Shown: positions 10,332 to 43,459 of the stretch, piece after piece
Layout of the letters: each line of letters starts with the position of its first letter
Numbering within the stretch: position 1 is the stretch's first letter
Assembly: GCF_947495965.1 (NCBI RefSeq)
Contig: NZ_CANMBB010000001.1
Coordinates: forward strand, 647,728 to 711,727
Direction of reading: 5' to 3'
From: an uncultured Maribacter sp.
GTDB taxonomy: Bacteria > Bacteroidota > Bacteroidia > Flavobacteriales > Flavobacteriaceae
Length of the DNA: 64,000 nt
The notes under the pieces: generated by a model
The model's input: only the letters and a program-made list of their open reading frames with translations
Databases searched by the model: none
Told to the model about the DNA's origin: nothing
Program-made: the position numbers and the translations under genes

Positions 10332-11621
10332 TTACCCCCTCCTATCAATTACCGTAACGGGTTTTCTGCCTAACATAGAACTTCTGAGTTTCTGAATTTC
10401 TGCATTATTACAAAATTCAATTTTTGGAGCAACTCTAAGTTTAGACCTAAAGTGGTCTCTGATTTCGCTCTGTAATTCGTCGGATTGGTTATTAGAAGCT
10501 ATTTTAATTCCAATTTCGTCGGTACCAATATCGTTATGATAAATTTCTATAACATGGCTTTCTACCTCTGTAAAATCGTTTAAAAGATTATCCATCGCTG
10601 GCGGATAAAGGGTAGTTCCCTTGTACTTTACCATTTGTTTTTTTCTTCCTACTAAAGGCCCTATTCTAACCGTATTTCTACCACAAGCACATGGCTCATT
10701 ATGTGCCACTACAATATCGCCAGTTTTAAAACGTAAAAGCGGCATTGCCTCTACTCCCAGTGTTGTGATTGTTAATTCTCCTTCTGTTCCTGCCGGAACA
10801 GGTTGGTTGTTATCATCTAAGACCTCCACAATAATTAATTCTGGATGTTGGTGCCCTCCTTGCATTTCGGAACATTCCGTAAAAGCAGTACTCATTTCTG
10901 TAGAAGCGTAGGTAGAAAACAAATCTATATCCCACTTTTCTTTAATTTTATTTCCTAAAATATTCAAAGAAAAATCTTGGTTGCGTAACGACTCTCCAAT
11001 ACAAACTGCTCCTTTAATACCCGAATTTTTATAATCTATACCGTGCTCATCTGCATAGCTTACCAATTTTAATAAAAAAGAAGGCACTACTATTAAATAC
11101 GAAGGTTTAAATTTTACAATAGTATCCCATTGCAATTCTGGAATGCCGGCGCCTACTCTTATAATTCCGGCGCCCAATTTTCTGGCGCCTAAGAAATATG
11201 CCAAACCAGCAATAAAACGCCTATCCATAGTCGTAGTAAGTTGTAAAACATCTTCCTTTGTAATACCAGCGCAAGCAAAAGAGATAGACTCGTTATAGGC
11301 CAAACGCTCCAAATCGGCATCAGTTAAAGCTATGGTAACTGGGTCTCCTAAGGTGCCCGATGTGGTTACATAATCTACAATATCGGTCTTAGAAACACAT
11401 AGAAAATCGGCATTATGCTTTTGTAACTCTTCCTTCGTAGTTGGTGTTATTTTTACCAAATCTTCCAAAGTCTGAATATCCTCTGCAACAATTTTATGAC
11501 TCTTGAACAAACGTCTGTAATACGGAGATTTTTCCAGTAGATAAGATATTAATTCTCTCAGTTTTTCTTCTTGAAAAGCTTTTATTGTTTTCTGGTCTGC
11601 CTTTTCTATTTCAGGAATCAT
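10332..11621 (-). CDS. Phenylacetate-CoA ligase-like adenylate-forming enzyme
   Basis: 429 residues of the PaaK-like AMP-binding family, which activates carboxylic acids as acyl-AMP and then as thioesters. The P-loop TTSGTLGDPV lies at about 86-95, the adenine-binding segment STYASTEMSTAF near 240, and FKTGDIV near 310; a small C-terminal domain follows. A Cys-rich patch PCACGRN (about 320) is typical of PaaK-like proteins in these clusters. The ATG overlaps the stop of the C45 gene (ATGA). In a flexirubin cluster with an ammonia lyase, the likely substrate is a (hydroxy)cinnamic acid starter or the finished polyene acid; sequence does not decide which. It is the last gene of the pigment run. 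Confidence 0.85.
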   Translation of the reverse strand: MIPEIEKADQKTIKAFQEEKLRELISYLLEKSPYYRRLFKSHKIVAEDIQTLEDLVKITPTTKEELQKHNADFLCVSKTDIVDYVTTSGTLGDPVTIALTDADLERLAYNESISFACAGITKEDVLQLTTTMDRRFIAGLAYFLGARKLGAGIIRVGAGIPELQWDTIVKFKPSYLIVVPSFLLKLVSYADEHGIDYKNSGIKGAVCIGESLRNQDFSLNILGNKIKEKWDIDLFSTYASTEMSTAFTECSEMQGGHQHPELIIVEVLDDNNQPVPAGTEGELTITTLGVEAMPLLRFKTGDIVVAHNEPCACGRNTVRIGPLVGRKKQMVKYKGTTLYPPAMDNLLNDFTEVESHVIEIYHNDIGTDEIGIKIASNNQSDELQSEIRDHFRSKLRVAPKIEFCNNAEIQKLRSSMLGRKPVTVIDRRG

Positions 11622-13304: not shown

Positions 13305-14177
13305 CTAATGTTTTTCTAAATTTTTATGTGTTTTTTTAACCGCAAGTTCCTCTTTATAGTTTAACCATTTTTGCCCCCAAAATCTACGTGTAATATTATC
13401 AAAATGACGCATAATTGCCACATTATACAGCATATTTAAAAAACGTTTTGGCGTCCTTGGCAATGCACGTAAAGTCATAGAAAAACCACCATTAAGGTAT
13501 TTTATATAATGCCAATAACCACTGGGCATATACAAAGCATCGCCATGCTTCATCTGCACCTGTATCCCTTCTGCATACTGCAATGCTGGATATTTTTCAA
13601 AATCTGGATTATCCATATCTATCTTATCAATATTGTGTATTGAAAAAGGGACTTTATATAAATATTGGGTTTGCTCAGGAGAAAACAGAGTTACACTTTT
13701 ATCGCCATGAAAATGAAAATGCATACTGTCTGGCAAATCAATATCATAGTGCATAAAAACTTTAGAATCTCCACCTCCAAAAAACAAAGCAGGTAATCTT
13801 TTAAAGAATTTTAGCCCAATATCTGGGTATTTAAAATCTTTTAATAACTCGGGCATACTTTTTAGAATGTCATAAAAGAAAATTCGTAAATCGGTAGGCT
13901 TAGTTTTTAAAATTTCTATATAATCGTATAGCTTAAGTTCTTTTACTGGAGCGTATACACTCTCTTTATCTTTTGCAGGCTCATTATTGTAAAGTGGTAC
14001 AATTTGCTCCCCTGCTCTTTCTTGAATATAATCTAGCGTCCATTTTTCATAGGCAGGCCAATCTTTAGTTAAACCTTCTATTAAAACTGGACGTTGCGGC
14101 TTGTAGTACTTTTCTATAAAATCTGCTTTGGTAATATTTTTTACTCGCTCTATAGGAGTGATTTTAAATTTTCCCAT
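13305..14177 (-). CDS. Cupin-like (JmjC-type) oxygenase
   Basis: 290 residues of the cupin-like/JmjC family of Fe(II)- and 2-oxoglutarate-dependent oxygenases. Seen: the N-terminal RPVLIEGLTKDWPA, the metal motif HYDID (H and D, about 142-146) preceding FHFHGDKSVTLFSP, and the second His in MPSGYWHYI near 222-230. Catalytic residues therefore look intact. It probably hydroxylates a small molecule or protein; in a pigment cluster ring or chain hydroxylation is a reasonable guess. The start codon shares a base with the stop of the upstream CrtI-like gene (TAATG), so the two are translationally coupled. Confidence 0.8.
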   Translation of the reverse strand: MGKFKITPIERVKNITKADFIEKYYKPQRPVLIEGLTKDWPAYEKWTLDYIQERAGEQIVPLYNNEPAKDKESVYAPVKELKLYDYIEILKTKPTDLRIFFYDILKSMPELLKDFKYPDIGLKFFKRLPALFFGGGDSKVFMHYDIDLPDSMHFHFHGDKSVTLFSPEQTQYLYKVPFSIHNIDKIDMDNPDFEKYPALQYAEGIQVQMKHGDALYMPSGYWHYIKYLNGGFSMTLRALPRTPKRFLNMLYNVAIMRHFDNITRRFWGQKWLNYKEELAVKKTHKNLEKH

Positions 14178-18700: not shown

Positions 18701-19410
18701 TCTTCTTGTATTTTATATAGTGATGTAGAAAATTTAGTATTCTTATCCGTTTCACTAGAAGGGTATTTTGGGGTGATAAAAAGCAATATATGTTGCTCAT
18801 CTTTACTTAGTAAAAAGCCATCTTTAAGAGTAAAATCGTCTCCAACACCTAAACTTTGCAATTTTTTCATTGCCATAAAGGACAATCCTAATGGATCCTT
18901 TAAAATAGTTTTTTTTGCAATTATTCCCGTAGGAGAAATAAGGGTATTGTAATTTTGCTTTGTAATACTTAATAAACTGTCTCTTGTTGTTTTTTGCTCC
19001 AGAATTTTATAATCTGAGGCCTCTAAAAAAAGCGGTAAATTTTTGTAAACAAAATCAATCGTATTAAAAACAACAGCATCTGAAACTTTCCCTTGAATAT
19101 TTTCTACATAGTCGGACTCCTTAGATAGACTATCTAAAAACGTATTTGCATAAGCAGTAATATCTGAAACCTTGCTATTAGGTTCTCTTTTAATGTTTAC
19201 AATAATTTTATCTGTAAACTTAACGGTCTGTAGTACTTTTTGATAGTCTTTATTATTCGTATTAACAGGGATAAGCTTTGTAATGTCTTCCTCGAAAGAA
19301 ATTTTACTAGCAATAAAACCAAAAGCAATTAAAATAGTAAAGAATGAGAGTAAGCCAGCAACTTTTTGCTTATGTATTAGTTCATATATTTTATATAGAA
19401 AATTACCCAT
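15736..19410 (-). CDS. MMPL/RND exporter fused to PlsC acyltransferase and a methyltransferase-like tail
   Basis: 1224 residues with three parts. Residues about 1-850 are an RND/MMPL-type exporter: a first helix at 17-37, a large extracytoplasmic loop beginning FEEDITKLIPVN, helix bundles near 265-400, a second loop and helices near 680-800. Residues about 870-1060 are a PlsC-type acyltransferase with NHTSFLD (HX4D, about 892) and FPEGTRSR near 960. Residues 1080-1224 look like a Rossmann/methyltransferase-type domain without a clear SAM-binding GxGxG, so it may be non-catalytic. The combination suggests acyl transfer coupled to export of the polyene or its ester across the inner membrane; that coupling is inference. 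The 3' end of the upstream glycosyltransferase gene overlaps its start by eight bases. Confidence 0.88.
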   Translation of the reverse strand: MGNFLYKIYELIHKQKVAGLLSFFTILIAFGFIASKISFEEDITKLIPVNTNNKDYQKVLQTVKFTDKIIVNIKREPNSKVSDITAYANTFLDSLSKESDYVENIQGKVSDAVVFNTIDFVYKNLPLFLEASDYKILEQKTTRDSLLSITKQNYNTLISPTGIIAKKTILKDPLGLSFMAMKKLQSLGVGDDFTLKDGFLLSKDEQHILLFITPKYPSSETDKNTKFSTSLYKIQEELNTAYKGKVSSEYFGAALVAVANANQIKKDIQFTVGIALTLLLVILIFFYRKITVPIVLFLPTIFGGLLSVAILYLLRGKISAISLGIGSVLLGVTLDYSLHILTHIRNNKSIKSLYVDVSPSILMSSVTTASAFLCLLFIKSQALQDLGIFAAISVLGASFFALLLIPQIYSTKKEKVSKKNILDRIASYEIHKNKIVLSGIALVLLVCIFTYNNVLFNTDIAKMNYEPKALLDARNNLEALTDIGSKSIYAAAYGNNLESALQVNDSIYHLLQEYKDKGVLKNYSAIGALVSSQKKQEEKIKRWQQFWNTTKTKQTKNDLIVAGEELGFKPKTFSPFYAALEKEYQPLTLEDYKSINVLVIADFIGTKEDFTAVTSLLKVETSENAQIIKENLKHKKTILIDRQGMNEAFLGNLKNDFNRLIGYSVLAVLVLLLLFYKSFSLTLVTGIPIFLTWFLTIGIMGLLGIEFNIFNIIISTFIFGLGVDYSIFITNGFLAENRTGEKIVPTHKTSILLSVITTILGVGVLIFAKHPALYTISVVSLVGILSAVLIAFTVQPLLFKLFIGDTTKRPISFRLFIHSVLSFTYFGLGGLVLSFFSLVLKIIPVSKKIKMAGFHRSISKLMGSVLYTNGFVSKEIINLKKDTFKEPVMIIANHTSFLDILAIGMLHPKIVFLVNDWVYNSPVFGKAVQAAGFYPVSKGVENGEAHLRKKVAQGYSLITFPEGTRSRTNKIKRFHKGAFHLADKLGLDVLPILIHGNSEVLPKGSFIIRDGSITIKVLNKIGIQDSSYGVTTREKTKQISTHFRKEFNTIRKDIENASYFHSLVLLEYRYKGNLIYNTVKSDLKLYASIYKEIIDYLDSKAQIIHLSKDFGQLDFLLKLDAPDRKITTYIKDSEAREIVTNSYITHNYKKYNFSNSVLEAFKEIANVAIVNLDSLNSEEIMALLKSEITILILLKESKSLHIDTILENGFTIDKELPEALFLKR

Positions 19411-20572
19411 TATGACTTACTAGCTTTTTTTTCTCCAAAACAGTTAAAAATAAATATGCAGAGAGTCCAAATAAAATGGCACCAAATGTAGCAAGCGTTA
19501 AGCTACCAACTATATATGTTTTTAAGTGTTTAAGAACTTCAAAATTAGTAGTCATTTCTTCTATGGTATAGGAATAATAATCTCCTAACATAAATTGCCC
19601 AACCTTAGAACTTGCGTATAATACAAAAGGTATAAATGGTGGTAAACTTATATTAGAAAAAGTAAATGCTAAGACTTTGTTTAACTTTAAAAGTATGGCT
19701 AAAGAAATAACTATTACCGTATGTAAACCCCACAATGGAGAAAGCCCAATAAAAATTCCTAATGCTATGGATAGGGCTTTTTTTCTTGGAGAATCATCAT
19801 TCTGCAAAAAATCTTCCCTTATAAATCGTTTAAATCCTTTTTTTTTAAAACGCCTGTATAAATCTCTTGGTTTTATATAAAGCAAAGCAATTAATACCAA
19901 CCAAGTGTTTAATATACTTATTCTTGTAAAATCTTTAAACGGTCTAAAATGCGACACTCTTTCCTCTTCATTGTAGGTAACTTGCACTGGTAAATTCTTT
20001 ACCAAAGTTCCTTTCCAAGCTGCTCTTACTATAACCTCTATTTCGAACTCAAATTTAGGAGTGTAAAATTTTAAGCCCATTAGTTCTGAAATTGGATATA
20101 ACCTAAAGCCACTTTGAGTGTCTTTTAATTTTACTCCAGTTTCAAACCAAAACCAAAAGTTAGAAAACTTATTTCCAAAGCTACTTTTCTTAGGAACATC
20201 CGTCTGTCCCATATTACGAGCGCCTATATAAAGAACATTTTTGGTTTCTTCCTTTTCTAAAGCATTTATAAAAACAGGAATGTCTTCCGGGAAGTGTTGC
20301 CCGTCAGAATCTATCGTAATGGCATAGGTAAAGCCCAACTCAAAGGCCTTTTTAAAACCTACTCTTAAGGCATTACCTTTTCCTTTATTTTCTTGTAATT
20401 CTATACAGTTTAAATGCTTAAATTCTTCTAAAATATTAGAAGTAGTATCTGTAGAGCCATCATTTATGATAATAATATCTTGGGTATACGCAAGAACGCC
20501 TAAAATAACTCTTTTTAAGGTTTTTTGATTATTGTAGGTTGGAATAACTACACAACATTTTAGCTGCTCCAT
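19403..20572 (-). CDS. GT2 glycosyltransferase with C-terminal DUF2062 membrane domain
   Basis: 389 residues from the ATG at 20572. The frame extends to a TTG at 20605, which lies within a -7 box and is rejected. Residues 1-230 are a family-2 glycosyltransferase: CVVIPTYNN, INDGSTDTT and the metal-binding ITIDSDGQH, then DTQSGFRLYP typical of dolichyl-phosphate-mannose-synthase-like enzymes. Residues about 255-385 form a DUF2062 domain with helices (GIFIGLSPLWGLHTVIVISL) as in polyene/flexirubin and aryl polyene clusters. The sugar donor and acceptor are unknown; flexirubins themselves are not glycosylated as a rule. First gene of the distal sub-operon. Confidence 0.87.
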   Translation of the reverse strand: MEQLKCCVVIPTYNNQKTLKRVILGVLAYTQDIIIINDGSTDTTSNILEEFKHLNCIELQENKGKGNALRVGFKKAFELGFTYAITIDSDGQHFPEDIPVFINALEKEETKNVLYIGARNMGQTDVPKKSSFGNKFSNFWFWFETGVKLKDTQSGFRLYPISELMGLKFYTPKFEFEIEVIVRAAWKGTLVKNLPVQVTYNEEERVSHFRPFKDFTRISILNTWLVLIALLYIKPRDLYRRFKKKGFKRFIREDFLQNDDSPRKKALSIALGIFIGLSPLWGLHTVIVISLAILLKLNKVLAFTFSNISLPPFIPFVLYASSKVGQFMLGDYYSYTIEEMTTNFEVLKHLKTYIVGSLTLATFGAILFGLSAYLFLTVLEKKKLVSHNG

Positions 20573-20602
20573 AGACTCCTTTATAGATGATGTGTTTTCT
20601 GC

Positions 20603-20610
20603 CAAAAATA
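20603..20610 (-). promoter_or_regulatory. Internal -7 box in the pigment operon
   Basis: TATTTTTG on the minus strand (20610-20603) fits TAnnTTTG and sits in the longest internal gap (20573-20672) of the pigment run. No TTG lies at the right distance upstream. A six-base stem (GTCTTT/AAAGAC near 20633-20647) precedes it but has no T tract. It may allow separate transcription of the last six genes. Confidence 0.45.
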
Positions 20611-21531: not shown

Positions 21532-22119
21532 TTAAATCTTAAATTTATAAGCTACACCTACTTGAAAAACATTATTTAAGCTTGTGTTATTATCATTATA
21601 ATCGTCAAAAAAATCATCAAACAAGTCTATATTAATAAGACCTTGTTTGTAACGTGCTTCTATTATAAGCCCAAAAGGAAATTCATATCCTATTCCAAAA
21701 AGCAAAGATAAATCTATTGGTGTAACATTAGACTCATTTGTATCATTAACTAGATTTATAAAATTATTATCAAAATCGACATCTAAACTAGGTCCCAAAA
21801 TAAAATGAAACCCTTGTTTAGGTGCTACATAAAATTTATTTATTGCAGCTATAGAAATATAGTTAATATTTAAGTCTTCTCCTCCGTTAGTAGATTCTCC
21901 GCCTTGACTAGAAAACCCTATTTCTGGTTGTAAAGCGTAGAAATTTGTAAACCTAACATCTAAAAAAACAGCACCATTAAGCCCAATCTTGTCCTCTAAA
22001 TTAGTATTAGAAATGTTAGCACTATTTACCCCTAAACGTATTCCTGGATTTACTTTAGATTGTGCAAAACCTACCATAGAAAAAGCAAAAAATAGAGTTA
22101 CTAAAATTATCTTCTTCAT
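21532..22119 (-). CDS. Outer-membrane beta-barrel protein (porin/PorT-like)
   Basis: 195 residues. A clear signal peptide ends GFAQ (residue 20). The mature part has alternating hydrophobic strands and aromatic residues, starts PGIRLGVNSANIS and ends with a terminal strand FQVGVAYKFKI, as in small eight-stranded barrels of the outer-membrane beta-barrel family of Bacteroidota. It lies one base after the start side of the lipoprotein gene in the pigment operon. A role in placing or passing pigment in the outer membrane is plausible but inferred from context. Confidence 0.82.
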   Translation of the reverse strand: MKKIILVTLFFAFSMVGFAQSKVNPGIRLGVNSANISNTNLEDKIGLNGAVFLDVRFTNFYALQPEIGFSSQGGESTNGGEDLNINYISIAAINKFYVAPKQGFHFILGPSLDVDFDNNFINLVNDTNESNVTPIDLSLLFGIGYEFPFGLIIEARYKQGLINIDLFDDFFDDYNDNNTSLNNVFQVGVAYKFKI

Positions 22120-26396: not shown

Positions 26397-26654
26397 TTAT
26401 TTAGGGCTATTTTCAGAAATATAAGTAGCCATTGTATCTATGGATTCAAATATCTTTTTCCCTTCTTTTGGATCCGACAATTTTATCCCGTAATCCTTAT
26501 CTAACATTACAATAAGTTCAAGAGCATCAATAGAATCTAGCCCTAAGCCTTCTCCAAATAAAGGGTCATTATCTGCAATTTCATCTACTGAAACATCTTC
26601 TAAGTTTAACTGCTCAATAATCTTATTTTTTAACTCTTCTTTTAACGCTTCCAT
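26397..26654 (-). CDS. Acyl carrier protein
   Basis: 85 residues, the usual size of an ACP. The phosphopantetheine attachment Ser is in GLGLDSIDALELIVML (Ser about 41). Acidic surface throughout. It sits between the half ketosynthase and the FabF-like gene and probably carries the growing polyene. One of two ACPs in the cluster; the other is at 37200-37442 and reads LELDSLDFVDL. Confidence 0.92.
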   Translation of the reverse strand: MEALKEELKNKIIEQLNLEDVSVDEIADNDPLFGEGLGLDSIDALELIVMLDKDYGIKLSDPKEGKKIFESIDTMATYISENSPK

Positions 26655-31948: not shown

Positions 31949-32944
31949 TTAGACCACCTTCTTTAATTTTTTAAAAAAAGCTTCTTCTTTATCTGCAATA
32001 GTAGCCAATTGATCCGCCACTTTATTATAACCATCTTCGGTTGCACTACGGTTTTTATAAATACGAGAAGCATCTACAGCAAAATCTCGCCATAAATCTC
32101 CAATTTGTGTAATTTCTTTAGACATTGTAGAAAGTTGGTCATTCTCCAAAATCTTACTTGCTTCTTGTAAAAAAGCACCATAAATATACCTAAAGCCACC
32201 ACCACCAGTACCAATCTCTTCTTGCATACGAACAATTTGTCCTAAATAGTGATTAGCGGTTTTAACTCCTTTTTTTGCTGGCCACTTACGAATTAGTTTT
32301 GCAATTTTACGTATAGCTTTTACTCCAACAATAGGAACAGGGGCAGTCATGTCTTTACAAGTATGCTTAATCCCTTTTACAATTGCCTTTTTTAATTCTA
32401 ATTTGTCTGGAAACTCTATAGGGTAATACATATGCCCTTTAGGGGCAAATGCTCCTTTAGCAAAACGAACTTTTTCTAGTTCTTTTTCTGATAGAGAGGT
32501 TACCTCCTCCATAACAGGATCACTTATTAAATATCTTCCTTCTTTTTTCCCATATACCACCATGTTATGAGCATTAAAATGAAAGCGATATTCCTCTGGA
32601 AAATACAATAAATTATACACTCCAACTTGCAAACCAACAGGGTTATTTTTTTCTAAATTCTCATCTAACCTTGCTTTTGCTTTTTGCGCAGTACTAAATT
32701 TTTCGCGTTTTATTTTTACCCCAGTACGTTTTGCAAAACGATTAAAAATAGTTCCTGGCATTGCACGATATGTAACTACAGGTGCATGATTAACTTTTAA
32801 AAAAGGAAGGTAACTAAATAATAATCCAGAGCCAATGCCAAAAACCATTGGTTCACTAACTTCAAAACCATTAAAACGCATTAAGTTAGACACTACGCCA
32901 TTTTCACAATGTGCAGATTGTTTGTGGGTAAAGTTTATTTCCAT
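31949..32944 (-). CDS. BtrH N-terminal domain protein
   Basis: 331 residues. The start FTHKQSAHCENGVVSNLMRF has the Cys-Glu-Asn motif of the BtrH/cysteine-protease-like fold (Cys about 13), and FHFNAHNMVVYG (His) with ISDPVM (Asp) could complete a Cys-His-Asp triad. BtrH transfers an acyl group from an ACP to an aminoglycoside in butirosin synthesis, so a related acyl transfer from a cluster ACP is the natural hypothesis. The C-terminal half (about 190-331) is helical and Lys-rich. Such proteins are regular members of flexirubin clusters. Candidate for the ester-forming step between polyene acid and resorcinol. Confidence 0.8.
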   Translation of the reverse strand: MEINFTHKQSAHCENGVVSNLMRFNGFEVSEPMVFGIGSGLLFSYLPFLKVNHAPVVTYRAMPGTIFNRFAKRTGVKIKREKFSTAQKAKARLDENLEKNNPVGLQVGVYNLLYFPEEYRFHFNAHNMVVYGKKEGRYLISDPVMEEVTSLSEKELEKVRFAKGAFAPKGHMYYPIEFPDKLELKKAIVKGIKHTCKDMTAPVPIVGVKAIRKIAKLIRKWPAKKGVKTANHYLGQIVRMQEEIGTGGGGFRYIYGAFLQEASKILENDQLSTMSKEITQIGDLWRDFAVDASRIYKNRSATEDGYNKVADQLATIADKEEAFFKKLKKVV

Positions 32945-32949: not shown

Positions 32950-33351
32950 TTATTTATGAATATCCTTTAGTTGTTCAACAGTAATTTCAAAAATATCGGC
33001 ATATTTTTGAAGTATTTTTTTATTTAACTTTTTAAAAACGGAAGGTTTAAAATGTCTTTTTACTCTCCATGCCCACATGCCAACATAACTTGCTAAAATA
33101 CCTACATCCATTTTGTGGAGTTCCATGTAATACTCAATAGGACTGGTAGTATTATTTAAAACTTTTTGTTTAGCAATCTCGGTTCTTTCCTCTATATCCT
33201 TAATAGCATTATCTAAAGCAATGGTTTTAGGGTCCCAACCAGTACTTAATTCTGTAGTATATTCTCCGTTTTCATCTACAGCATAATACATTTCTTTAAT
33301 ATTAGCCGACTCTAGATTACTTTTATCCTGAGGCACTTCGTTTTTCTTCAT
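32950..33351 (-). CDS. Hypothetical flexirubin-cluster protein with helix-turn-helix-like tail
   Basis: 133 residues from the ATG at 33351. The longest frame begins at a TTG (33387) inside the preceding gene, and the ATG leaves a two-base gap instead, so the ATG is chosen. The N-terminal third is polar (SANIKEMYYAVDENGEY). The C-terminal part, about 75-133 (MDVGILASYVGMWAWRVKRH … KYADIFEITVEQLKDI), is helical and resembles an XRE-type helix-turn-helix. It could be a DNA-binding regulator or, as a cluster-specific protein, an adaptor. I do not recognise a named family. Confidence 0.7.
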   Translation of the reverse strand: MKKNEVPQDKSNLESANIKEMYYAVDENGEYTTELSTGWDPKTIALDNAIKDIEERTEIAKQKVLNNTTSPIEYYMELHKMDVGILASYVGMWAWRVKRHFKPSVFKKLNKKILQKYADIFEITVEQLKDIHK

Positions 33352-33353
33352 CT

Positions 33354-33803
33354 CTATATTTCGTGAATTAGAAAGTTTAGAGTACAAGCTACAATTAATT
33401 CATCATTATTAAAAATAGCCCCTTCAATTGTACAAATGCTAACTCCTTCTGTATCAAACCTAGAAACCAGCTTTGTCTTGGTCACAATGGTATCTCCTAC
33501 CTTTGGAAGCTGATGTATAGTTACTTTTTTAATTGCACTTATATAGCCTGTAATATTATTAGTTTTACCTTCTAAATCTCCTTTTTCAAAAAAACTTTGC
33601 CCCACAACCGCAGAGCTAACTTGCGCAGCATTCTCTATAAGACCAGGTTCTTTTAAAACACCATCTTTTACAAAAACGCAATCGTTGTTTATCTGAAATT
33701 CTCCTGTGGCACTATCGTCATTTATATGGGTAATATAAGACACCATGAGCATTGGGTCTCTATGCGGTAGAAAGTTTTTAATGCCAATTTTATTTTTGCC
33801 CAC
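33354..33803 (-). CDS. Hotdog dehydratase-like protein, GTG start
   Basis: 149 residues, starting at GTG; no ATG occurs before residue 18, and the family motif lies early: NFLPHRDPMLMVSYI (about 9-23) with the His that FabZ/FabA-like and ApeP-like dehydratases use, then EPGLIENAAQVSSAV near 50-65. It lies seven bases after a second hotdog gene, and the pair may form a heterodimer, as dehydratases of aryl polyene clusters do. Confidence 0.85.
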   Translation of the reverse strand: MGKNKIGIKNFLPHRDPMLMVSYITHINDDSATGEFQINNDCVFVKDGVLKEPGLIENAAQVSSAVVGQSFFEKGDLEGKTNNITGYISAIKKVTIHQLPKVGDTIVTKTKLVSRFDTEGVSICTIEGAIFNNDELIVACTLNFLIHEI

Positions 33804-33810
33804 GTATTTT

Positions 33811-34248
33811 TTATTTTGCTAATACGGTTTTCATTTCGCTTAATGCAATAATTTCCCCTTCGCACTCCACTTCAATTTTTACTAAAGTTACCCCCATTAT
33901 ATCATGTAAAATAACAACCGTGGTTTTTAGTTCTTGTCCTTCTTTTGGCAGCTTAATTATCTCTGCTTTTTTTATAGAACCTATATAACCAGTAGGTGCT
34001 TCTTGGTTTTTAAGAAAATAAGAATACCCAGTATGTAAGGCAACGGTTTGTGCCATATTCTCTATTAATCCAGGGCCTTGAAAATAACCGTTAGATGAAA
34101 ATAAGTCTTCCTTTTTTATTTTAAATCCAGAAATTATCTTCTCGGCAGAAAAATAGAACAATGTATCTACCATTACAAATGGCCATTTTTGTGGTATTAA
34201 GTTTTGTATAAAACTTTCATCCGTAATTGGTTGTTCTACTACATTCAT
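33811..34248 (-). CDS. Hotdog dehydratase-like protein (ApeP-like)
   Basis: 145 residues. The motif reads LIPQKWPFVMVDTLFYF (about 17-33), where Gln-Lys replaces the PHR of its neighbour, so the catalytic His is not in the usual place; GYFQGPGLIENMAQTVALHTG follows in two parts. Its downstream partner at 33354-33803 keeps PHRDP. The two probably form one heteromeric dehydratase in which only one subunit carries the His. Directly abuts the DarB stop codon. Confidence 0.84.
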   Translation of the reverse strand: MNVVEQPITDESFIQNLIPQKWPFVMVDTLFYFSAEKIISGFKIKKEDLFSSNGYFQGPGLIENMAQTVALHTGYSYFLKNQEAPTGYIGSIKKAEIIKLPKEGQELKTTVVILHDIMGVTLVKIEVECEGEIIALSEMKTVLAK

Positions 34249-35382
34249 TTAACATACAGTTAAATATGCATAAGTATAAGAAAAACGAGCGCTTTCCGGA
34301 ACATGAAGAAGTATTCTATCTCCTTTTTTTAGCTTCCCAGAAGCCACCAATTCTTCTAACATTACATATATAGATGCAGCTCCTACATTACCTACATTCT
34401 CTAAATTTAAAAACCACTTATCCCAAGGAATTTCTACCCCTTGTAATTTAAGCTCTTCATAGAGGTTATCTTTGAAATAATAGGACGAAATATGAGGTAA
34501 ATAATAATCTACATCCTCTGGGCCAATATTATTTTTCTCAAAAGCTAATTTTAAACTATCCACACCTTTTACTAAGATATTTTCACCTAATAAACGTGTG
34601 TCTTGTTTCATAGCAAACAAGGATATTTTACCCCATTCTTTTGCAGGAAACTCGCTCCAAGGTTTTAGATTGCCATCTTCTAATTTGTCTGCTCCTGCAT
34701 ACATACATGCTTCTATCTCATGTGCGTAAGAGTAGCCTTCCATCCACTCTACTTTCAATGGAGTATTTCCTTTAGGTTCACTTTCTAAAAGAACAGCACC
34801 AGCACCATCCGATAGCATCCAACGTAAAAAATCTTTATTAAAAGCTAAAATAGGGCTATCTTCTAACTCACTAAGTTGCTCTACTTCATCTTCAAAAACA
34901 TCTGCTCGCATCCAACTAGAAGTTCTTTCAGAACCTGCGCATACAGCATTTTCTACTTGACCGGTTTTTATAGAAAGAAATCCAAATTTTAAAGCATTCA
35001 TTCCAGAACAACAAGCTCCAGACGGAGAATTTATTTCCATATTACCATTCTTTAAAAAACCATGTACCATAGAGGTATGAGAAGGTAATATTTGATCAGG
35101 ACTAGATGTTCCGCAAGACAACAATTGAATATCTTTTGTTGTAAAATTAGCATCACACAAATTCTCCACAGCCTCTTTTGTTAGCTGTGCATTATTATGG
35201 GTAACCTGGCCATTTTCATCAATGGCATAATATCTAGTTTTAATTTTATTGTTACGCAAAACAATACGTCTTGCTTTTGATGTTTTTCCTCCAATTTTTC
35301 CAAGTTTTTCTTCCATTTGATCATTATCAACTGGTTTGTTGGGTAAAAACTTAGATATTCTTGTTATGTATACTTCTTTCAT
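34249..35382 (-). CDS. darB: DarB: KSIII-type ketosynthase for dialkylresorcinol
   Basis: 377 residues of the FabH/KSIII family. The nucleophile Cys is in SPSGACCSGMNAL (about 122), the His in YYLPHISSYYF (about 297) and the Asn in NLENVGNVGAAS (about 330), so the Cys-His-Asn triad is present. The gene overlaps darA by four bases (ATGA), the arrangement found in dialkylresorcinol and flexirubin clusters, where DarB joins a beta-ketoacyl thioester to an enoyl thioester. The acid and resorcinol halves are then esterified. The assignment rests on family and on the darA neighbour. Confidence 0.88.
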   Translation of the reverse strand: MKEVYITRISKFLPNKPVDNDQMEEKLGKIGGKTSKARRIVLRNNKIKTRYYAIDENGQVTHNNAQLTKEAVENLCDANFTTKDIQLLSCGTSSPDQILPSHTSMVHGFLKNGNMEINSPSGACCSGMNALKFGFLSIKTGQVENAVCAGSERTSSWMRADVFEDEVEQLSELEDSPILAFNKDFLRWMLSDGAGAVLLESEPKGNTPLKVEWMEGYSYAHEIEACMYAGADKLEDGNLKPWSEFPAKEWGKISLFAMKQDTRLLGENILVKGVDSLKLAFEKNNIGPEDVDYYLPHISSYYFKDNLYEELKLQGVEIPWDKWFLNLENVGNVGAASIYVMLEELVASGKLKKGDRILLHVPESARFSYTYAYLTVC

Positions 35383-36308
35383 GAATTTTCCTTTAAATAA
35401 ACCGAAGAAAAATATTCTTTCTCTCTTTTTCTTTTAAGGTGCGTAGGCAAATAAGTCAACAAAAATACAATAAAAACTATTGGTGCAATAACCCAAATTG
35501 CAAATAATAAATAATACTTAAAAACCTTAAGGAATTTTACTCTTTTAGGTGCTCCAGACTTTCCTTTTTTTATGATAAGATTTGCCCACTTAGAAAAGAT
35601 AACATTCCCTCTTTCGTCTGTCATTACTAGATAAGGATTCACAATAACACCCCCAAGCTTTACAAATGTTTTTTGAAGTGTTGAAAAATCATTTTTTACT
35701 AATGCTTCTTTAATTGGCGCTCCATATTTATTTGCCTCTTTTATATCTTTATCTGATACCCCTGGTTTAGGAAAAATTCCTAAATAACGGTCTTTTTTAC
35801 CAGATAACATCCAGTATTCAATAGTTATAACACTAATGTGATTAATATGCTTATCTACAAAAGCTAAATGCCCAACCAAATTTGCATTAGCTTTTACTAA
35901 AAGTCTTTTTACTTTCTCTTGCGCTTGCAACCACATATTCCTACAAGCAACAACAGTTATAACAGGTGTATTACCCATTATTTTTTCTGCAAATTCTGAC
36001 TTTAAAAAAGAGTTTATAGGTATTGAAGGAGTTAAAAACCAAACTTGGTATCCTAAAACCACCAAATCAAAATCTTTATTTAAAATTTCTTCTGGAGGGG
36101 TTTCTATCTCTGAAGGTATTTGTAAAAAGGTCTCTGGAAAAACATCATAAAAACTATCTTTTCCCCAAGGAAATTTAAAAGGCTTTACGGGTTTTATTTC
36201 ATAATAGGTTACATTAATTTCTTCCTTAAAAATTGGGGTAATCATATTTTTAAGAATAGTTGTTAGCTGCCCTGTTTGAGAATAATGTATAACTAGTATT
36301 TCTTTCAT
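35379..36308 (-). CDS. darA: DarA: aromatase/cyclase-type partner in dialkylresorcinol synthesis
   Basis: 309 residues. The N terminus ILVIHYSQTGQLTTIL (4-19) has the flavodoxin-like phosphate loop (YSQTGQL), and DLVVLGYQVWFLTPS near 85-100 belongs to the same fold; the C terminus has one hydrophobic helix (about 275-297) with a basic tail, so it is likely membrane-bound. In the Dar route DarA is needed to turn the DarB product into the aromatic resorcinol. Whether it binds flavin is unknown. Overlaps darB and the acyltransferase gene by four bases each. Confidence 0.85.
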   Translation of the reverse strand: MKEILVIHYSQTGQLTTILKNMITPIFKEEINVTYYEIKPVKPFKFPWGKDSFYDVFPETFLQIPSEIETPPEEILNKDFDLVVLGYQVWFLTPSIPINSFLKSEFAEKIMGNTPVITVVACRNMWLQAQEKVKRLLVKANANLVGHLAFVDKHINHISVITIEYWMLSGKKDRYLGIFPKPGVSDKDIKEANKYGAPIKEALVKNDFSTLQKTFVKLGGVIVNPYLVMTDERGNVIFSKWANLIIKKGKSGAPKRVKFLKVFKYYLLFAIWVIAPIVFIVFLLTYLPTHLKRKREKEYFSSVYLKENS

Positions 36309-37199: not shown

Positions 37200-37442
37200 T
37201 TAGCCTAATTTTTTCTCAATAAGGTCGTAAAAATGTTGTAATGTAGTAACGTTGATAAAGTCTTCACCAACAAGTTTTACTCCAAAATTAGACTCTACTG
37301 CAACCACAAGGTCTACAAAATCTAAACTATCTAATTCTAAAGTATCTTTAAGGTTAGCTTCTGGATGAATGTCATCTTGTTCTACCTCAAATTCGTCTAT
37401 AAGAAAGTCGTTTATCTTTTCAATAATAACTTCTTTATCCAT
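37200..37442 (-). CDS. Acyl carrier protein
   Basis: 80 residues, acidic, with the phosphopantetheine Ser in TLELDSLDFVDLVVAV (about 39). Lies four bases from the FabF-like gene and seven from the acyltransferase gene, so it probably feeds both. Second ACP of the cluster. Confidence 0.92.
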   Translation of the reverse strand: MDKEVIIEKINDFLIDEFEVEQDDIHPEANLKDTLELDSLDFVDLVVAVESNFGVKLVGEDFINVTTLQHFYDLIEKKLG

Positions 37443-38679: not shown

Positions 38680-39432
38680 TTAAGAGTATATCCCTCCATT
38701 TATATTAATAACTTCTCCTGTAATATAAGAAGCTTTTTTAGAAATTAAAAAAGAAACTAAATCTGCTACTTCTTGAGCTTCCCCAAATCTATTGGCAGGA
38801 ATCATTCTTTTTAATTCTTTTTCATCTAATTCTCCGGTCATATCTGTTTTAATAAAACCAGGAGCTACAGCATTTACAGTAACGTTTCTTTTAGCAACTT
38901 CTTGTGCCAATGCTTTGGTTGCTGCAATAATTGCTCCTTTTGCAGCAGAATAATTTGTTTGACCCGGAGTACCCTTAAGACCAGATACTGAAACCATATT
39001 TACAATTCTTCCGTATTTATTTACAAGCAATTTTTGAATTAGGTGATTGGTGACATTAAAAAAGCCATTTAAACTTGTATTAATAACACTAGACCAGTCT
39101 TCTGGTTTCATCCACATAAATAGACCGTCTTTTGTTATTCCCGCATTATTAACTACAGCTTCAATAATTGCATTTTCATTTGCTTCTTGCCAAGCATCTA
39201 AACGCGCTTTTACTTCTTCTAAATTTCCAACATTAAATTGAATAATTTCTCCGGAACCACCAGCATTCTCAACTTCTTTTAAAGTGTCTTCTGCTGCTGT
39301 TTGGTTACTATTATAATTGATTAGAATTTTATATTCAGAATCTTTAGCTAGCTGAATACAAACAGCTTTTCCTATTCCACGAGATCCTCCAGTTACAAGA
39401 GCATATTTTTTAGGCGCAATTTTCTCCTTCAT
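38680..39432 (-). CDS. fabG: 3-oxoacyl-ACP reductase (FabG-like)
   Basis: 250 residues of the short-chain dehydrogenase family. NADPH-binding TGGSRGIGKAV is at 15-25, NNAGITKDG near 92-100, and the catalytic Ser (MVSVSG) and Tyr-x-x-x-Lys (YSAAKGA) near 146-165. It reduces beta-ketoacyl-ACP to the hydroxy form. In an aryl polyene cluster it acts with the dehydratases in every cycle. Housekeeping FabG is expected elsewhere. Confidence 0.92.
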   Translation of the reverse strand: MKEKIAPKKYALVTGGSRGIGKAVCIQLAKDSEYKILINYNSNQTAAEDTLKEVENAGGSGEIIQFNVGNLEEVKARLDAWQEANENAIIEAVVNNAGITKDGLFMWMKPEDWSSVINTSLNGFFNVTNHLIQKLLVNKYGRIVNMVSVSGLKGTPGQTNYSAAKGAIIAATKALAQEVAKRNVTVNAVAPGFIKTDMTGELDEKELKRMIPANRFGEAQEVADLVSFLISKKASYITGEVININGGIYS

Positions 39433-39454: not shown

Positions 39455-40585
39455 TTATTTACTAGTATCCACAAAGTTTTCTGCATTCTGAAACCATTTA
39501 CCTCCTAGAGCTTCTCCTTTTTCATTAATAAAGCCCCACTTTTTGTTAGACTTTACTTTGGCTAAACCATTAATAAAACCTTTTTTAAATCCAGACATTA
39601 CAAAAGAAAACCCACCAGATATATCATACTCCATAGGTATTACTAATGTTCCAGATGTATTTACAAATCCCCATTTTTTATCTCTTACTGGAGCCAAACC
39701 TTTATCTCCAAAGATTTCTGCATCTCTATAATCAAAAGGAATTACCTCTTCTCCTTTTTCATTGATATAACCCCAAGATTTTCCTTTTAAAACTGGTGCT
39801 AATCCATCAACAAAAGCTTTTACTTTATTAAAAGTTGGCTCTATAACCCATTCTCCGCTTGCATTAATAAAGCCCCAAGTTTTTCCTTTTCTAGCATAGG
39901 TAAGTTTAGATGAAGAATGAAAGTCCCATATTTTAGTAGCACCAGGTACAACTTGTAATTTACCGTTAACAATAACACCAAAATCTTCTCCTTTTCTTGC
40001 CCATATACCATTGCTATTATACTTACTTATTTCTTTATAATCTGCAGGTATAACTAGCTCTCCTTTTTTATTTATAAGCCCCCAAGACTCTCCAATTTTT
40101 ACCTTAGCATGACCTTCCCAAAAGTTTTTTATTACTGTATATTTAGGTTCTAAAATAAGTTTTCCATCAGTTCCTAAAATCCCTATTCTATCTCCTTTTT
40201 TAAATAATGCAACACCATCATTAAAATCATAATACTTATCTGGTATTGGGGTTTCTAATTGTTTCCCAGTACCATCTACATATTTCCAAATTTCATTACT
40301 ATAAACCAAAGCGTATCCAGAATTAAATCTCTTTACTTTATCGTATTCTGGTTTAATTACCCATTCTCCTTTTGCATTAATAAAACCCCACTTATCATCT
40401 TTTCTAGCAGCTGCATATTTTCCCGAGAAGCTTGCAGCTTTTTCAAATTGAGGCTCAATTACATATACCCCAGATTTATTAATATACCCAAATAAATCAT
40501 TCTCTCTAACCAACGCAAGTTCTTGCGCATAGAAAGAAGAAACTGATAATAAAATAGTTAAAATGAATAAAAACCCCTTTTTCAT
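39455..40585 (-). CDS. Exported WG-repeat protein
   Basis: 376 residues. A signal peptide ends FYAQ (about residue 21). The mature part is about ten WG repeats of roughly 33 residues each, with repeats such as KWGFINAKGEWVIKP, SWGLINKKGELVIP and TWGFINASGEWVIEP. WG (KWG) repeats form a beta-structured domain that usually binds proteins or carbohydrates; enzymatic activity is not expected. Placed between FabG and the ammonia lyase with a six-base gap to the latter, it is a regular though unexplained passenger of such clusters. It could be a periplasmic scaffold for pigment assembly. Confidence 0.85.
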   Translation of the reverse strand: MKKGFLFILTILLSVSSFYAQELALVRENDLFGYINKSGVYVIEPQFEKAASFSGKYAAARKDDKWGFINAKGEWVIKPEYDKVKRFNSGYALVYSNEIWKYVDGTGKQLETPIPDKYYDFNDGVALFKKGDRIGILGTDGKLILEPKYTVIKNFWEGHAKVKIGESWGLINKKGELVIPADYKEISKYNSNGIWARKGEDFGVIVNGKLQVVPGATKIWDFHSSSKLTYARKGKTWGFINASGEWVIEPTFNKVKAFVDGLAPVLKGKSWGYINEKGEEVIPFDYRDAEIFGDKGLAPVRDKKWGFVNTSGTLVIPMEYDISGGFSFVMSGFKKGFINGLAKVKSNKKWGFINEKGEALGGKWFQNAENFVDTSK

Positions 40586-40590
40586 AATTT

Positions 40591-42117
40591 TTAGTTTTCG
40601 TTGTTAATAATAAAATCTTTTACTTGATTAACAAAAGGATACATAACAAGATCCTCTTTAAACGGGGGAACAATTTTTCTTATTTTAGAATATAAAGCTT
40701 TAGTTTTAGAAGAAACTTTATCCTGAACTCCTAAATACTCTATTGCTTGTGTTATAGTAATTAACTCTATTGCCATAACCTCAAAAGCATTTTCTATTAC
40801 TTTTTTGGTTATTAAGGCCGCATTAGTACCCATACTAACAATATCTTGATTGTCATTGTTATTTGGTATACTGTGCACATACATAGGGTTAGACAACATT
40901 TGGTTTTCTGCAGTAGTAGAAGTTGCTGTAAACTGTACTCCCTGCATTCCAAAGTTTAAACCTAATTCTCCTAAATTAACAAAAGGCGGAAGTATATCAT
41001 TCAACTTAGAGTTCATTAAATAATTTAGTTGTCTTTCTGCCAACATACTGGTTTTAGCAACTACTATTTTTAGCTTATCCATCTCTAAAGAAACATAATC
41101 TCCATGGAAATTTCCGCCATGATAAACATGCTTTTTCTCTACATTAACAATAGGATTATCATTTGCAGAGTTTACTTCTTCTATCATTATTTTTTCTACA
41201 CCATTTAAAGTGTCTAAAACTGGTCCTAATATTTGTGGTACACACCTAATAGAATAGTACTCTTGCACTTTTTCTTCAAAAACGGAGACACCATCATTAT
41301 TGGTATATAAATGATGTTCTCTTTTTCTTGTTAACTGACTATCTTTTAAATGGCTACGCATAGAACGTGCAATTTCTCGCTGTCCTTTATGCATTTTAGT
41401 ATTATTTAGCTCTTCTGATAAATGATCGTCATAAGCTTGCATTATTTCATTTATAGCAGAAGAAGAAGAAATCATCCACTCTAAAAGTCTACGAGTGTAT
41501 ATAGTATTTACAATACCAATACCCGTCATTACAGAAGTACCATTAATAAGTCCTAGACCTTCTCTAAGTTCTACAGAAATTGGTTGTAAACCTTCCTTTT
41601 TAAATATTTCTTCTGTTGTTTTTCTTTCGCCTTTATAAAAAACTTCACCTTCTCCTATTAAAACCAGAGCTAAATGTGCTAATTGAACTAAATCTCCACT
41701 AGCACCAACACCACCATGTTCATAAATTAACGGAGTTATATCTCTATTAATTAATTCTATCATTAGCTCAACAACAGAAATATGAATTCCAGAATTCCCT
41801 AAGCTCAATGTGTTAATCCTTGCAAGCATTGCTGCTTTTACATATTTTGGTGCTATTGGGTTTCCTGTTCCAGAAGCATGACTTCTTATAAGATTGTATT
41901 GTAATTTAATTCTTTCAGAATCTTTAATCTTATACTGAGCCATTGGCCCAAATCCTGTATTTACTCCGTAGATTACTTTATTCTGAGAAAATTCTTTTAA
42001 AAAATTATGACTTTCATTAATAGTAGCTACAACTTTTGGGTCTATAGTTAACTTTTCTCCTTTGAAAATTACATTATAAAACTCTGTAATTCCTAACTTT
42101 CCTTTAATTTTTGGCAT
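40591..42117 (-). CDS. MIO-dependent aromatic amino acid ammonia lyase (tyrosine-type likely)
   Basis: 508 residues. The prosthetic MIO group forms from Ala-Ser-Gly at 139-141 in GGVGASGDL. The substrate loop reads LIRSHASGTG (Ser79-His80), resembling histidine lyases, but the C-terminal motif NNDNQDIVSMG has Gln where histidine ammonia lyases have the histidine-binding Glu, as tyrosine and phenylalanine lyases do. It lies at the head of a flexirubin cluster, where such enzymes make 4-hydroxycinnamate (or cinnamate) as the aryl starter. Tyrosine as substrate is the best reading; HAL activity is less likely. First gene of the operon, 62 bases from a strong promoter. Confidence 0.86.
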   Translation of the reverse strand: MPKIKGKLGITEFYNVIFKGEKLTIDPKVVATINESHNFLKEFSQNKVIYGVNTGFGPMAQYKIKDSERIKLQYNLIRSHASGTGNPIAPKYVKAAMLARINTLSLGNSGIHISVVELMIELINRDITPLIYEHGGVGASGDLVQLAHLALVLIGEGEVFYKGERKTTEEIFKKEGLQPISVELREGLGLINGTSVMTGIGIVNTIYTRRLLEWMISSSSAINEIMQAYDDHLSEELNNTKMHKGQREIARSMRSHLKDSQLTRKREHHLYTNNDGVSVFEEKVQEYYSIRCVPQILGPVLDTLNGVEKIMIEEVNSANDNPIVNVEKKHVYHGGNFHGDYVSLEMDKLKIVVAKTSMLAERQLNYLMNSKLNDILPPFVNLGELGLNFGMQGVQFTATSTTAENQMLSNPMYVHSIPNNNDNQDIVSMGTNAALITKKVIENAFEVMAIELITITQAIEYLGVQDKVSSKTKALYSKIRKIVPPFKEDLVMYPFVNQVKDFIINNEN

Positions 42118-42167
42118 CTAATGTTGGCTATACTTAAATAAGCGGCAATTTATAAATAAAAATGATT

Positions 42168-42184
42168 AATTTGCTGTGCAAATT
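42168..42184. promoter_or_regulatory. Palindrome between divergent pigment genes
   Basis: AATTTGC, spacer TGT, GCAAATT: a perfect 7-base inverted repeat in the 103-base divergent region between the ammonia lyase and the flavin-enzyme gene. It overlaps the minus-strand -7 box and a near-consensus plus-strand -7 box (TTAATTTG, 42166-42173), so a dimeric regulator here could control both directions at once. Confidence 0.5.
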
Positions 42185-42207
42185 TACATTATTTAATAAA
42201 TATCCAA
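42179..42207 (-). promoter_or_regulatory. Promoter of the pigment operon
   Basis: On the minus strand: TTG (42207-42205), 18 bases, then TAAATTTG (42186-42179), an exact match to the Bacteroidota -33/-7 pattern. It would start transcription near 42172 and give a leader of about 55 bases before the ammonia lyase ATG at 42117. The -7 box lies in the palindrome. Confidence 0.7.
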
Positions 42208-42220
42208 TTTAATCTGTAAG

Positions 42221-43459
42221 ATGATTCAAGAAAATGTTGAAGTATTAATAATAGGAGCAGGACCATCTGGCTCAGTAGCAGCTTCCTATTTGCACAACAA
42301 TGGCTTTAAAGTAAAGGTTGTAGAAAAAAGCACATTCCCTAGATTTGTAATTGGAGAAAGTCTTCTACCAAGATGTATGGATCATTTTGATGAAGTAGAT
42401 TTATTACAACCCTTAAAAGATTTTGGGTTTGAAGTTAAATCTGGTGCTAGATTTATGAGAGGGGAAGAAATTTGTAACTTCGACTTTGCAAAAAAACACG
42501 GCGAAGGTTGGGATTGGACATGGCAAGTACCTAGAGCAGATTTTGATACTATATTAACCAATACATTAATAGAAAGAGGCGTAGATATTGCTTTTGAACA
42601 AGAAGTTACAGATGTAGTTATTACAGACGAAGGCTCTACAATTAGCATAAAAAATAATAAAGGTGAAATATCTAAAATTTTTGCCAAGTTTATTATTGAC
42701 TCTAGTGGATATGGCAGAGTATTACCAAGATTACTAGACTTAGATAAACCATCTCCACTACCAAAACACTCTTCTATATTTGCGCATGTAAATGACCCTA
42801 AACGCCCTGAAGGGGTAGAAGGCACCCTAATAACGTTTGATGTTTTGAGTAAAGAAACCTGGCTGTGGGTAATTCCTTTTTCTAATGGACGCACAAGTAT
42901 TGGTCTTGTAGGACCCACAGAATATATGGATTCTTTTAAAGGGACAAACGAAGAGAAATTAAAAGAAATAATAAATCTCTCTACGTACTATAGAGACCGT
43001 TTTGATGGAGTAGATATTAACTTTGAACCAAAACTTATTAAAAATTACTCTAAATCTGTAAAACAAATTTATGGTAAAGGATATGCTCTTACCGGAAATA
43101 GTGCAGAATTTTTAGACCCTGTATTTTCTTCTGGTGTAACTTTCGCAACCGAATCTGCTTTACTTGCAGCAAAATTGGCTGCAAAAGAACTAAAAGGAGA
43201 AAATGTTAATTGGGAAGTAGACTACTATGAATACATAAAAGAAGGTGTAGATGTATTTTCTACCTATGTAAAAGAATGGTATACTGGAAACTTACAAAAA
43301 ATATTTTTTCACAGACCAGAAAATCCTGAAATAAAAAAGCAAATATGTGCCGTACTAGCTGGGTATGTTTGGGATAAAACTAACCCTTTTGTAAAAAATC
43401 ATAACCGTTTGGTAAGAACTGTTGCAAAGGTAATAGATATGGAAAACCAAACCGTGTAA
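42221..43459 (+). CDS. Flavin-dependent halogenase/hydroxylase-like oxidoreductase
   Basis: 412 residues. The FAD fold begins LIIGAGPSGSVAAS (8-21). FPRFVIGESLLP (about 47-58) and WLWVIPFSNGR (near 214-224) match the conserved blocks of flavin-dependent halogenases (the WxWxIP motif) and related monooxygenases. Chlorinated flexirubins are known, so halogenation of the aryl ring is a strong possibility, but many cluster oxidoreductases with these motifs only hydroxylate. Transcribed away from the pigment operon across a shared regulatory region and ended by its own terminator. No flavin reductase gene is seen nearby. Confidence 0.85.
   Translation: MIQENVEVLIIGAGPSGSVAASYLHNNGFKVKVVEKSTFPRFVIGESLLPRCMDHFDEVDLLQPLKDFGFEVKSGARFMRGEEICNFDFAKKHGEGWDWTWQVPRADFDTILTNTLIERGVDIAFEQEVTDVVITDEGSTISIKNNKGEISKIFAKFIIDSSGYGRVLPRLLDLDKPSPLPKHSSIFAHVNDPKRPEGVEGTLITFDVLSKETWLWVIPFSNGRTSIGLVGPTEYMDSFKGTNEEKLKEIINLSTYYRDRFDGVDINFEPKLIKNYSKSVKQIYGKGYALTGNSAEFLDPVFSSGVTFATESALLAAKLAAKELKGENVNWEVDYYEYIKEGVDVFSTYVKEWYTGNLQKIFFHRPENPEIKKQICAVLAGYVWDKTNPFVKNHNRLVRTVAKVIDMENQTV

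Follow-up and report, generated by a model that had tools for sequence, protein, structure and literature searches.

The window, a 64,000-nucleotide stretch of contig NZ_CANMBB010000001.1 from an uncultured Maribacter close to M. vaceletii, very probably carries, judging from its gene content, a complete flexirubin operon. Within this operon, two acyl-transfer enzymes plausibly divide the assembly of the pigment: a cytoplasmic DarH, of the CtaG type and with a phenol as acceptor, would form the ester, and a membrane-anchored C45 would finish or relocate the pigment outside the cytoplasm; a lineage without the dialkylresorcinol (dar) genes, DarH and the PlsC part of the exporter would make a different aryl-polyene lipid with the remaining 20 genes, C45 among them. 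Flexirubin is a chemotaxonomic marker for Bacteroidota, and in the literature surveyed biochemical support extends only to the resorcinol half and to the first two steps on the polyene side. The gene list thus becomes a set of testable assignments: the ester to DarH, a step outside the cytoplasm to C45, and ring halogenation to the divergent gene.

Gene content and organization

Positions 10332-42117 hold 33 consecutive minus-strand open reading frames (ORFs) of 80-1224 amino acids (aa) each, which fill 99.3% of the interval, leave a largest intergenic gap of 67 bp, and overlap or abut at 14 of 32 junctions; a divergent plus-strand ORF lies 103 bp away. The initial annotation had described a complete flexirubin-type cluster of about 33 kb in one direction, with 32 tightly packed minus-strand genes and a divergent flavin enzyme beside it. 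Curated models matched above their cut-offs and matching gene order elsewhere bear out the type, completeness and direction, and the packing and the divergent gene also stand; the gene count is corrected to 33. The closest named genomes are those of Maribacter, the KS2 protein being 98% identical to that of an uncultured Maribacter and 96% identical to that of M. vaceletii.

Families were assigned by Pfam and NCBIfam scans with curated cut-offs. FlxA, FlxY, DarB, DarG, DarH and LolB2 score above the NCBIfam cut-offs, and the other previously named parts (two acyl carrier proteins (ACPs), ketosynthases, hotdog proteins, acyltransferases and exporters) also have Pfam or NCBIfam matches. DarA matched no curated Pfam or NCBIfam family and keeps its name through its place beside DarB and its conservation. 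Overall, family matches and invariant residues identify the ACP, ketoreductase, dehydratase and ketosynthase (KS) genes of a type II polyene synthase, and outer-membrane delivery genes (LolA2/LolB2 and an exporter) are present. The features, in order from the divergent gene, are:

42221-43459, plus: FADdiv, divergent flavin enzyme; Pfam Trp_halogenase, flavin-dependent halogenase signatures
42179-42186, minus: motif TAAATTTG upstream of FlxA, resembling a Bacteroidota-type -7 promoter; pattern match in the 103-bp divergent gap
40591-42117, minus: FlxA, tyrosine ammonia-lyase; NCBIfam NF053541, 879 bits, cut-off 700
39455-40585, minus: WG-repeat protein, signal peptide-like N-terminus; PF14903, 6 repeats
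38680-39432, minus: FabG-type ketoreductase; PF13561
37447-38664, minus: KS1 ketosynthase, Cys-His-His; PF00109/PF02801; C162, H299, H334 invariant
37200-37442, minus: ACP1; PF00550
36305-37192, minus: LpxL-like acyltransferase; PF03279
35379-36308, minus: DarA; position beside DarB, conservation; isolated DarA-DarB pair in genome G057
34249-35382, minus: DarB; NCBIfam NF053539, 659 bits, cut-off 550
33811-34248, minus: FabZ-like hotdog protein 1 (FabZ1); weak NCBIfam FabZ match, below cut-off
33354-33803, minus: FabZ-like hotdog protein 2 (FabZ2); weak NCBIfam FabZ match, below cut-off
32950-33387, minus: DarG; NCBIfam NF053545, 211 bits, cut-off 170
31949-32944, minus: DarH, BtrH-like acyltransferase; NCBIfam NF053550, 517 bits, cut-off 300
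31193-31936, minus: ABC transporter ATPase; PF00005
29932-31230, minus: ABC-2 permease; PF12698
29505-29954, minus: 4HBT thioesterase; PF13279
28364-29512, minus: KS3 ketosynthase; PF02801; C146, H276, H310 invariant
27284-28345, minus: S-adenosylmethionine-dependent methyltransferase, O-methyltransferase family; PF00891
26660-27277, minus: u205, short ketosynthase-like protein; single sequence matches no family, profile matches ketosynthase 6kxd, E 7e-4
26397-26654, minus: ACP2; PF00550
25160-26356, minus: KS2 ketosynthase; PF00109/PF02801; C161, H294, H329 invariant
24096-25160, minus: CLF1, chain-length-factor-like; PF00109 partial; no Cys at the expected active-site position
23326-24102, minus: polysaccharide deacetylase; PF01522
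22710-23333, minus: LolA2; PF03548
22121-22729, minus: LolB2; NCBIfam NF053540, 245 bits, cut-off 60
21532-22119, minus: outer-membrane beta-barrel; PF13568
21160-21528, minus: FabA-like dehydratase; PF07977
20673-21158, minus: u161, no family found, hydrophobic N-terminus; beside DarA in G139, G293 and G309
19403-20605, minus: GT2 glycosyltransferase with DUF2062; PF00535, PF09835
15736-19410, minus: MMPL exporter fused to PlsC acyltransferase; PF03176, PF01553
14177-15727, minus: CrtD/CrtISO-like flavin adenine dinucleotide oxidoreductase; below NCBIfam CrtD cut-off
13305-14177, minus: cupin_8 protein, sporadic accessory; PF13621
11618-13303, minus: C45, Ntn-type acyltransferase/hydrolase, predicted lipoprotein; NF040521, 235 bits, cut-off 85
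10332-11621, minus: FlxY, aryl-CoA ligase; NCBIfam NF053551, 720 bits, cut-off 520

In the proposed pathway, FlxA and FlxY would supply 4-coumaroyl-CoA, which KS1-3, CLF1, u205, FabG, the FabZ and FabA proteins and the two ACPs would extend to an aryl-polyenoyl-ACP; the halogenase-like FADdiv and the methyltransferase probably decorate the ring, and DarA and DarB would make the dialkylresorcinol. DarH, as a carrier-protein-dependent cysteine acyltransferase, would move the polyene acid from ACP to a resorcinol hydroxyl, the MMPL-PlsC protein, the ABC transporter, LolA2/LolB2 and the outer-membrane proteins would carry the pigment outward, and C45, outside the cytoplasm, would then act on the exported polyene lipid. 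We infer these reactions and their order from gene content, conservation, co-occurrence, predicted folds and active-site residues. The notion that u205 is unrelated to the pathway was rejected on its profile match to 6kxd (E 7e-4).

The cluster in other genomes

Of 80 relative loci, 40 were placed in genomes, and longer stretches were taken from 18 named genomes and from the 25 lyase-positive genomes of a Bacteroidota draw, the window's own included; genes in these stretches were assigned with the window proteins and with profiles built from them. Flavobacterium hydatis has 32 of 34 genes in identical order, the window differing by a methyltransferase and a cupin that are absent from the F. 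hydatis stretch examined, and the window's order, accessory genes aside, is that of most Flavobacteriaceae examined. The genes are rearranged in Algoriphagus chordae, in the five genomes of the order's other family and in genomes further away; in G266, the divergent flavin gene is relocated. Because the same gene order recurs in other genera, a chance assembly is ruled out. The cluster had also been called unusually long; 33 kb is normal, since the published F. johnsoniae flexirubin cluster measures 37 kb (PMC3992019) and other Flavobacteriaceae have clusters comparable in size and identical in gene order. On its gene content, the cluster is of the standard flexirubin kind, a further example of a known system.

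Among the stretches from the 25 lyase-positive genomes, tyrosine ammonia-lyase and KS2 were found in 25, C45 and DarB in 24, DarA, DarG, DarH and the CrtD-like gene in 23, the divergent flavin gene in 22, the WG gene in 14, the methyltransferase in 7 and the cupin in 3, some misses being due to split or cut clusters (G057, G139, G309). In the stretches from the 18 named genomes, the WG gene was found in 17, the methyltransferase in 12 and the cupin in 9. Maribacter thermophilus, which carries this cluster, is listed as flexirubin-positive (PMC10942906). Decay or silence of the cluster in this strain, with no pigment made, is very improbable: none of the 34 frames is interrupted, and the near relatives G001 and G002 have counterparts of all 34 proteins at 89-100% identity.

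Comparison with described systems, as far as the cited texts report them, places the window among several arrangements. The F. johnsoniae operon likewise contains LolA2/LolB2 (PMC11885536). Chitinophaga pinensis flxA-flxY/darAB shares with the window the lyase, the ligase, the ketosynthase set, LolA, the glycosyltransferase and the exporter (PMC3992019); however, its dar and flx genes are located apart from each other, as they also are in G423 and G340, and do not form one operon. In G423 and G340, DarH sits in the separate dar operon with the ABC pair, an ACP, a KS and a chain-length factor, resembling the arrangement in Azoarcus sp. BH72, the arcuflavin producer (PMC3949708). There, the dar locus has DarA, DarB, a BtrH-like protein, an ABC pair, an ACP and a ketosynthase, and the arc loci have a halogenase, LolA and a deacetylase, all as in the window; in contrast, the starter derives from chorismate rather than tyrosine, and Table 1 of that report has no annotated C45 or ammonia lyase.

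DarH and the ester step

DarH probably moves the polyene acid from ACP to the resorcinol hydroxyl and so forms the ester. DarH has the Pfam domains BtrH_N (PF14399), shared with BtrH of butirosin, and PF16169. Its AlphaFold model (predicted local distance difference test (pLDDT) 87) matches CtaG of closthioamide (Z 23.6) and CcbD of celesticetin (Z 20.9) over the whole chain (~300 residues); the Z range across CtaG, AziU3 and CcbD is 20.7-23.6, with phytochelatin synthase, C39 peptidases and other papain-like chains at Z ≤ 14.1. Moreover, Cys13, His126 and Asp142, invariant in 33 sequences, match CtaG C11, H128 and D144 in order and nearly in spacing, and CtaG variants at these three positions are deposited in the PDB. 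CtaG is described as taking hydroxybenzoate from CtaH, a carrier protein, and passing it to an acceptor bound to CtaE (PMC6772006). Heterologous DarA and DarB alone yielded resorcinol (PMC3992019), and since these two suffice for the resorcinol half, DarH probably acts after resorcinol formation.

Against the ester assignment, the likeness to CtaG and CcbD, in fold and matching residues at 12-13% identity, is no proof of ester formation; CtaG, CcbD and BtrH are amide formers, whereas DarH is proposed to form a phenol ester. A profile sequence search of the PDB with DarH returned designed coiled coils only; the evidence for the family link is therefore the predicted fold together with Pfam and NCBIfam. 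NCBIfam already labels DarH a BtrH-related acyltransferase; it is the ester assignment that we infer here, and none of the titles and abstract openings searched in the literature assigned the ester step to a BtrH-like protein.

Co-occurrence with the pathway

The draw comprised 296 Bacteroidota genomes, at least 90% complete, which were searched with single window proteins. Positives numbered 25 for the lyase, 26 for DarB, 26 for KS2, 24 for C45, 24 for DarH and 23 for the CrtD-like protein, the KS2 positives being the 25 lyase-positive genomes and a weak match in G114. C45 was present in 24 of 25 lyase-positive genomes (the miss being G139) and in 0 of 271 lyase-negative ones; the corresponding counts for the CrtD-like protein were 23/25 and 0/271, with no genome-wide match at the cut-off used in G158 and G139 and none in the stretch from G434. 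Strong DarH matches (about 1e-95 or better) occurred in 23 of the 24 genomes having both the lyase and DarB, with G278 as the miss, and no DarH match was found in the DarB-positive, lyase-negative genomes G294 and G316. Further, in the stretches examined, DarH was found in 23 of 23 draw genomes with DarA and was absent in both without it (G158, G278). Counted by genus, 11 of 140 have C45 and 12 of 140 have the lyase.

The association persists where the genes are unlinked. In G057 (loci L125-L128, L186 and L187), the lyase, C45, DarH, DarA-DarB, KS2 and the CrtD-like gene lie at six separate places, and in G309 the lyase is ~318 kb from C45. In the family of G293, 30 of 107 genomes carry C45; among the 27 of these outside the draw, 26 have the lyase (not G381) and 26 have DarB (not G416), and the 9 tested of 77 C45-negative genomes have neither (lyase 0/9, DarB 0/9). 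In 20 of these 26 lyase-positive genomes, C45 is >50 kb from the lyase or on another contig, draft contigs making some of these separations uncertain. Because both co-occur with pathway genes even when unlinked, C45 and DarH belong to the pathway.

Several observations count against so tight an association. The surveyed genomes are related and are not independent samples, so simple p-values would overstate it. A weak DarH relative stands alone in G198, the 24th DarH genome, and weak second copies occur in G250, G305 and G309. G278 has the lyase and a DarB-like gene, with no DarH match anywhere in the genome and neither DarA nor DarG in the stretches examined; G139 has dar genes and DarH with no C45 genome-wide, its cluster ending near a contig end. 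Likewise, G381 (91% complete) has C45 and no lyase match, and G416 has the lyase and C45 and no DarB match.

The initial annotation had counted the BtrH-like protein, C45, the WG protein and the cupin among many unexplained passengers. This description fails for the first three: DarH and C45 track the pathway, and the WG gene is carried by all 14 lyase- and DarB-positive draw genomes of the window's family. The co-occurrence across genomes led us to reject C45, BtrH and WG as random passengers, and only the cupin is sporadic (3/25). A BtrH-like gene within a dar locus had already been published (PMC3949708), and C45 had already been listed among aryl-polyene cluster genes (PMC5932025). By its distribution, the WG protein is a lineage-restricted regular part: its carriers among the named genomes include a contig labelled Chryseobacterium and Algoriphagus, and it was not found in the stretches examined from the five draw genomes of the order's other family and the five more distant ones.

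DarB-like matches were also seen in ORFs of 617-675 aa, two in the lyase-negative genomes (G294:C42, G316:C390) and one as a second copy (G222:C12).

C45 and clusters without the dar genes

C45 resembles isopenicillin N acyltransferase, acid ceramidase and N-acylethanolamine acid amidase (NAAA), of the Ntn family, in its catalytic fold and Cys nucleophile; unlike them, it has a predicted membrane anchor at its N-terminus and, at its C-terminus, an additional helical part with weak TPR matches. The model has a pLDDT of 90, its catalytic part has the isopenicillin N acyltransferase/ceramidase fold, and Cys181 is invariant in 34 sequences. The single protein had no sequence match in the PDB, and the C45 profile gave a weak match to NAAA. 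In 27 of 34 alignment rows (25 under a stricter pattern), a lipoprotein-type Ser-Cys-Gly lies close to the N-terminus; the other 7 rows all belong to the more distant families f4 and f11 and show a hydrophobic segment at the N-terminus in its place. C45 is thus predicted, from its sequence, to be membrane-anchored outside the cytoplasm.

Two species of one genus, with genomes G158 and G434, have a compact cluster without the dialkylresorcinol genes that retains the window's order. Its first part comprises the divergent flavin gene, lyase, FabG, LpxL, FabZ1, 4HBT, KS3, methyltransferase, u205 and ACP2, and its second part KS2, CLF1, deacetylase, LolA2, FabA, GT2, MMPL, cupin, C45 and ligase; in G434, two unmatched genes separate LolA2 from FabA. 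Within the 40 kb examined, KS1, ACP1, DarA, DarB, FabZ2, DarG, DarH, the ABC pair, LolB2, the barrel, u161, WG and the CrtD-like gene are absent; DarB is absent genome-wide in both genomes, as are DarH and the CrtD-like gene in G158. In marine Flavobacteriia, a different distribution of aryl-polyene genes and darA/darB was already implied (PMC5932025). This genus offers a natural variant for comparison with the full pathway; however, as both genomes belong to it, they probably record a single loss event, which lessens their weight for the proposed division of labour.

Because an extracytoplasmic anchor bars access to ACP thioesters and C45 survives in the dar-free clusters, C45 is placed after export, where it may well act on the exported polyene lipid by hydrolysis or transacylation. 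A rather unlikely alternative is that C45, not DarH, forms the ester outside the cytoplasm, with a lipid carrier as polyene donor and an exported dialkylresorcinol as acceptor. Its acyltransferase fold, its invariant Cys181 and its near-universal co-occurrence with the pathway favor this role, as does its probable identity with FlxW, for Schoner et al. suggested that a 'ligase-like enzyme (FlxW)' joins the polyene to the resorcinol. By gene order C45 is probably FlxW: if two unmatched genes are assumed, a gene count along the cluster of G423 places C45 at position W. However, both dar-free clusters retain C45, and G139 lacks it despite having dar genes and DarH. If C45 is FlxW, the dar-free clusters argue against a joining role for FlxW, though C45 could use another acceptor there. 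Moreover, the same ester is predicted in Azoarcus, where Table 1 has a BtrH-like gene and no annotated C45, with four proteins unannotated or conserved hypothetical (PMC3949708).

The MMPL protein of G158 and G434 ends at model position ~810 and so lacks the PlsC part, which is present in the other MMPL copies examined (that of M. litopenaei being spread over three frames). In both dar-free genomes the PlsC part therefore tracks the dar genes, which fits a reading in which the LpxL-like or the MMPL-fused PlsC protein, both of acyltransferase families, makes the ester, and DarH and the ABC pair serve transport or acyl shuttling of the resorcinol half. That reading is improbable: LpxL is retained in both dar-free clusters, and comparable acyltransferases of the E. 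coli aryl polyene system were proposed to attach a membrane anchor (PMC8253772). DarH stays the preferred candidate for the ester step.

Predicted ring decoration

The PDB chain nearest to FADdiv is 3nix, followed by several halogenases, including CmlS and PltA, and its Lys73 aligns with Lys in all five PDB alignments shown, of 9 matches. Lys73 is invariant, and WxWVIP (WLWVIP in the window) and DPVFSSG are conserved; we take the Lys and WxWxIP to be active-site signatures of flavin-dependent halogenases. The gene was found in the stretches from 22 of 25 lyase-positive genomes. FADdiv and the methyltransferase predict, by their sequences, a halogenated and possibly methylated pigment. Flexirubins vary in ring methylation and chlorination (PMC3992019), and the literature search returned nothing direct on a halogenase in flexirubin clusters.

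Flanking genes and minor observations

The flanking genes are ordinary (RecQ, a cyclic nucleotide-binding protein, PAP2, Tex). A cyclic nucleotide-binding regulator-like gene (9741-10307, minus) lies on the same strand 24 bp downstream of FlxY and is kept in three close Maribacter relatives. The gene u201 (43518-44123, minus), of no known family and with a signal peptide-like N-terminus, adjoins the divergent flavin gene in several genera. Similarity along the cluster is mosaic: KS2 and CLF1 (24096-26356) are nearer to Flavivirga, Kordia and Aquimarina than to three other Maribacter, by 8-9 points, and DarA, DarB and both FabZ proteins (33354-36308) are nearer to Maribacter, by 9-16 points.

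In M. litopenaei (G032, L165-L166), many genes in and around the cluster are split over frames, a pattern suggestive of sequencing indels and not of decay. A Tamlana nanhaiensis contig (G025:C2, L175-L178) holds two whole-cluster copies 189 kb apart, 100% identical over 39.9 kb, which are either a very recent duplication or an assembly artefact.

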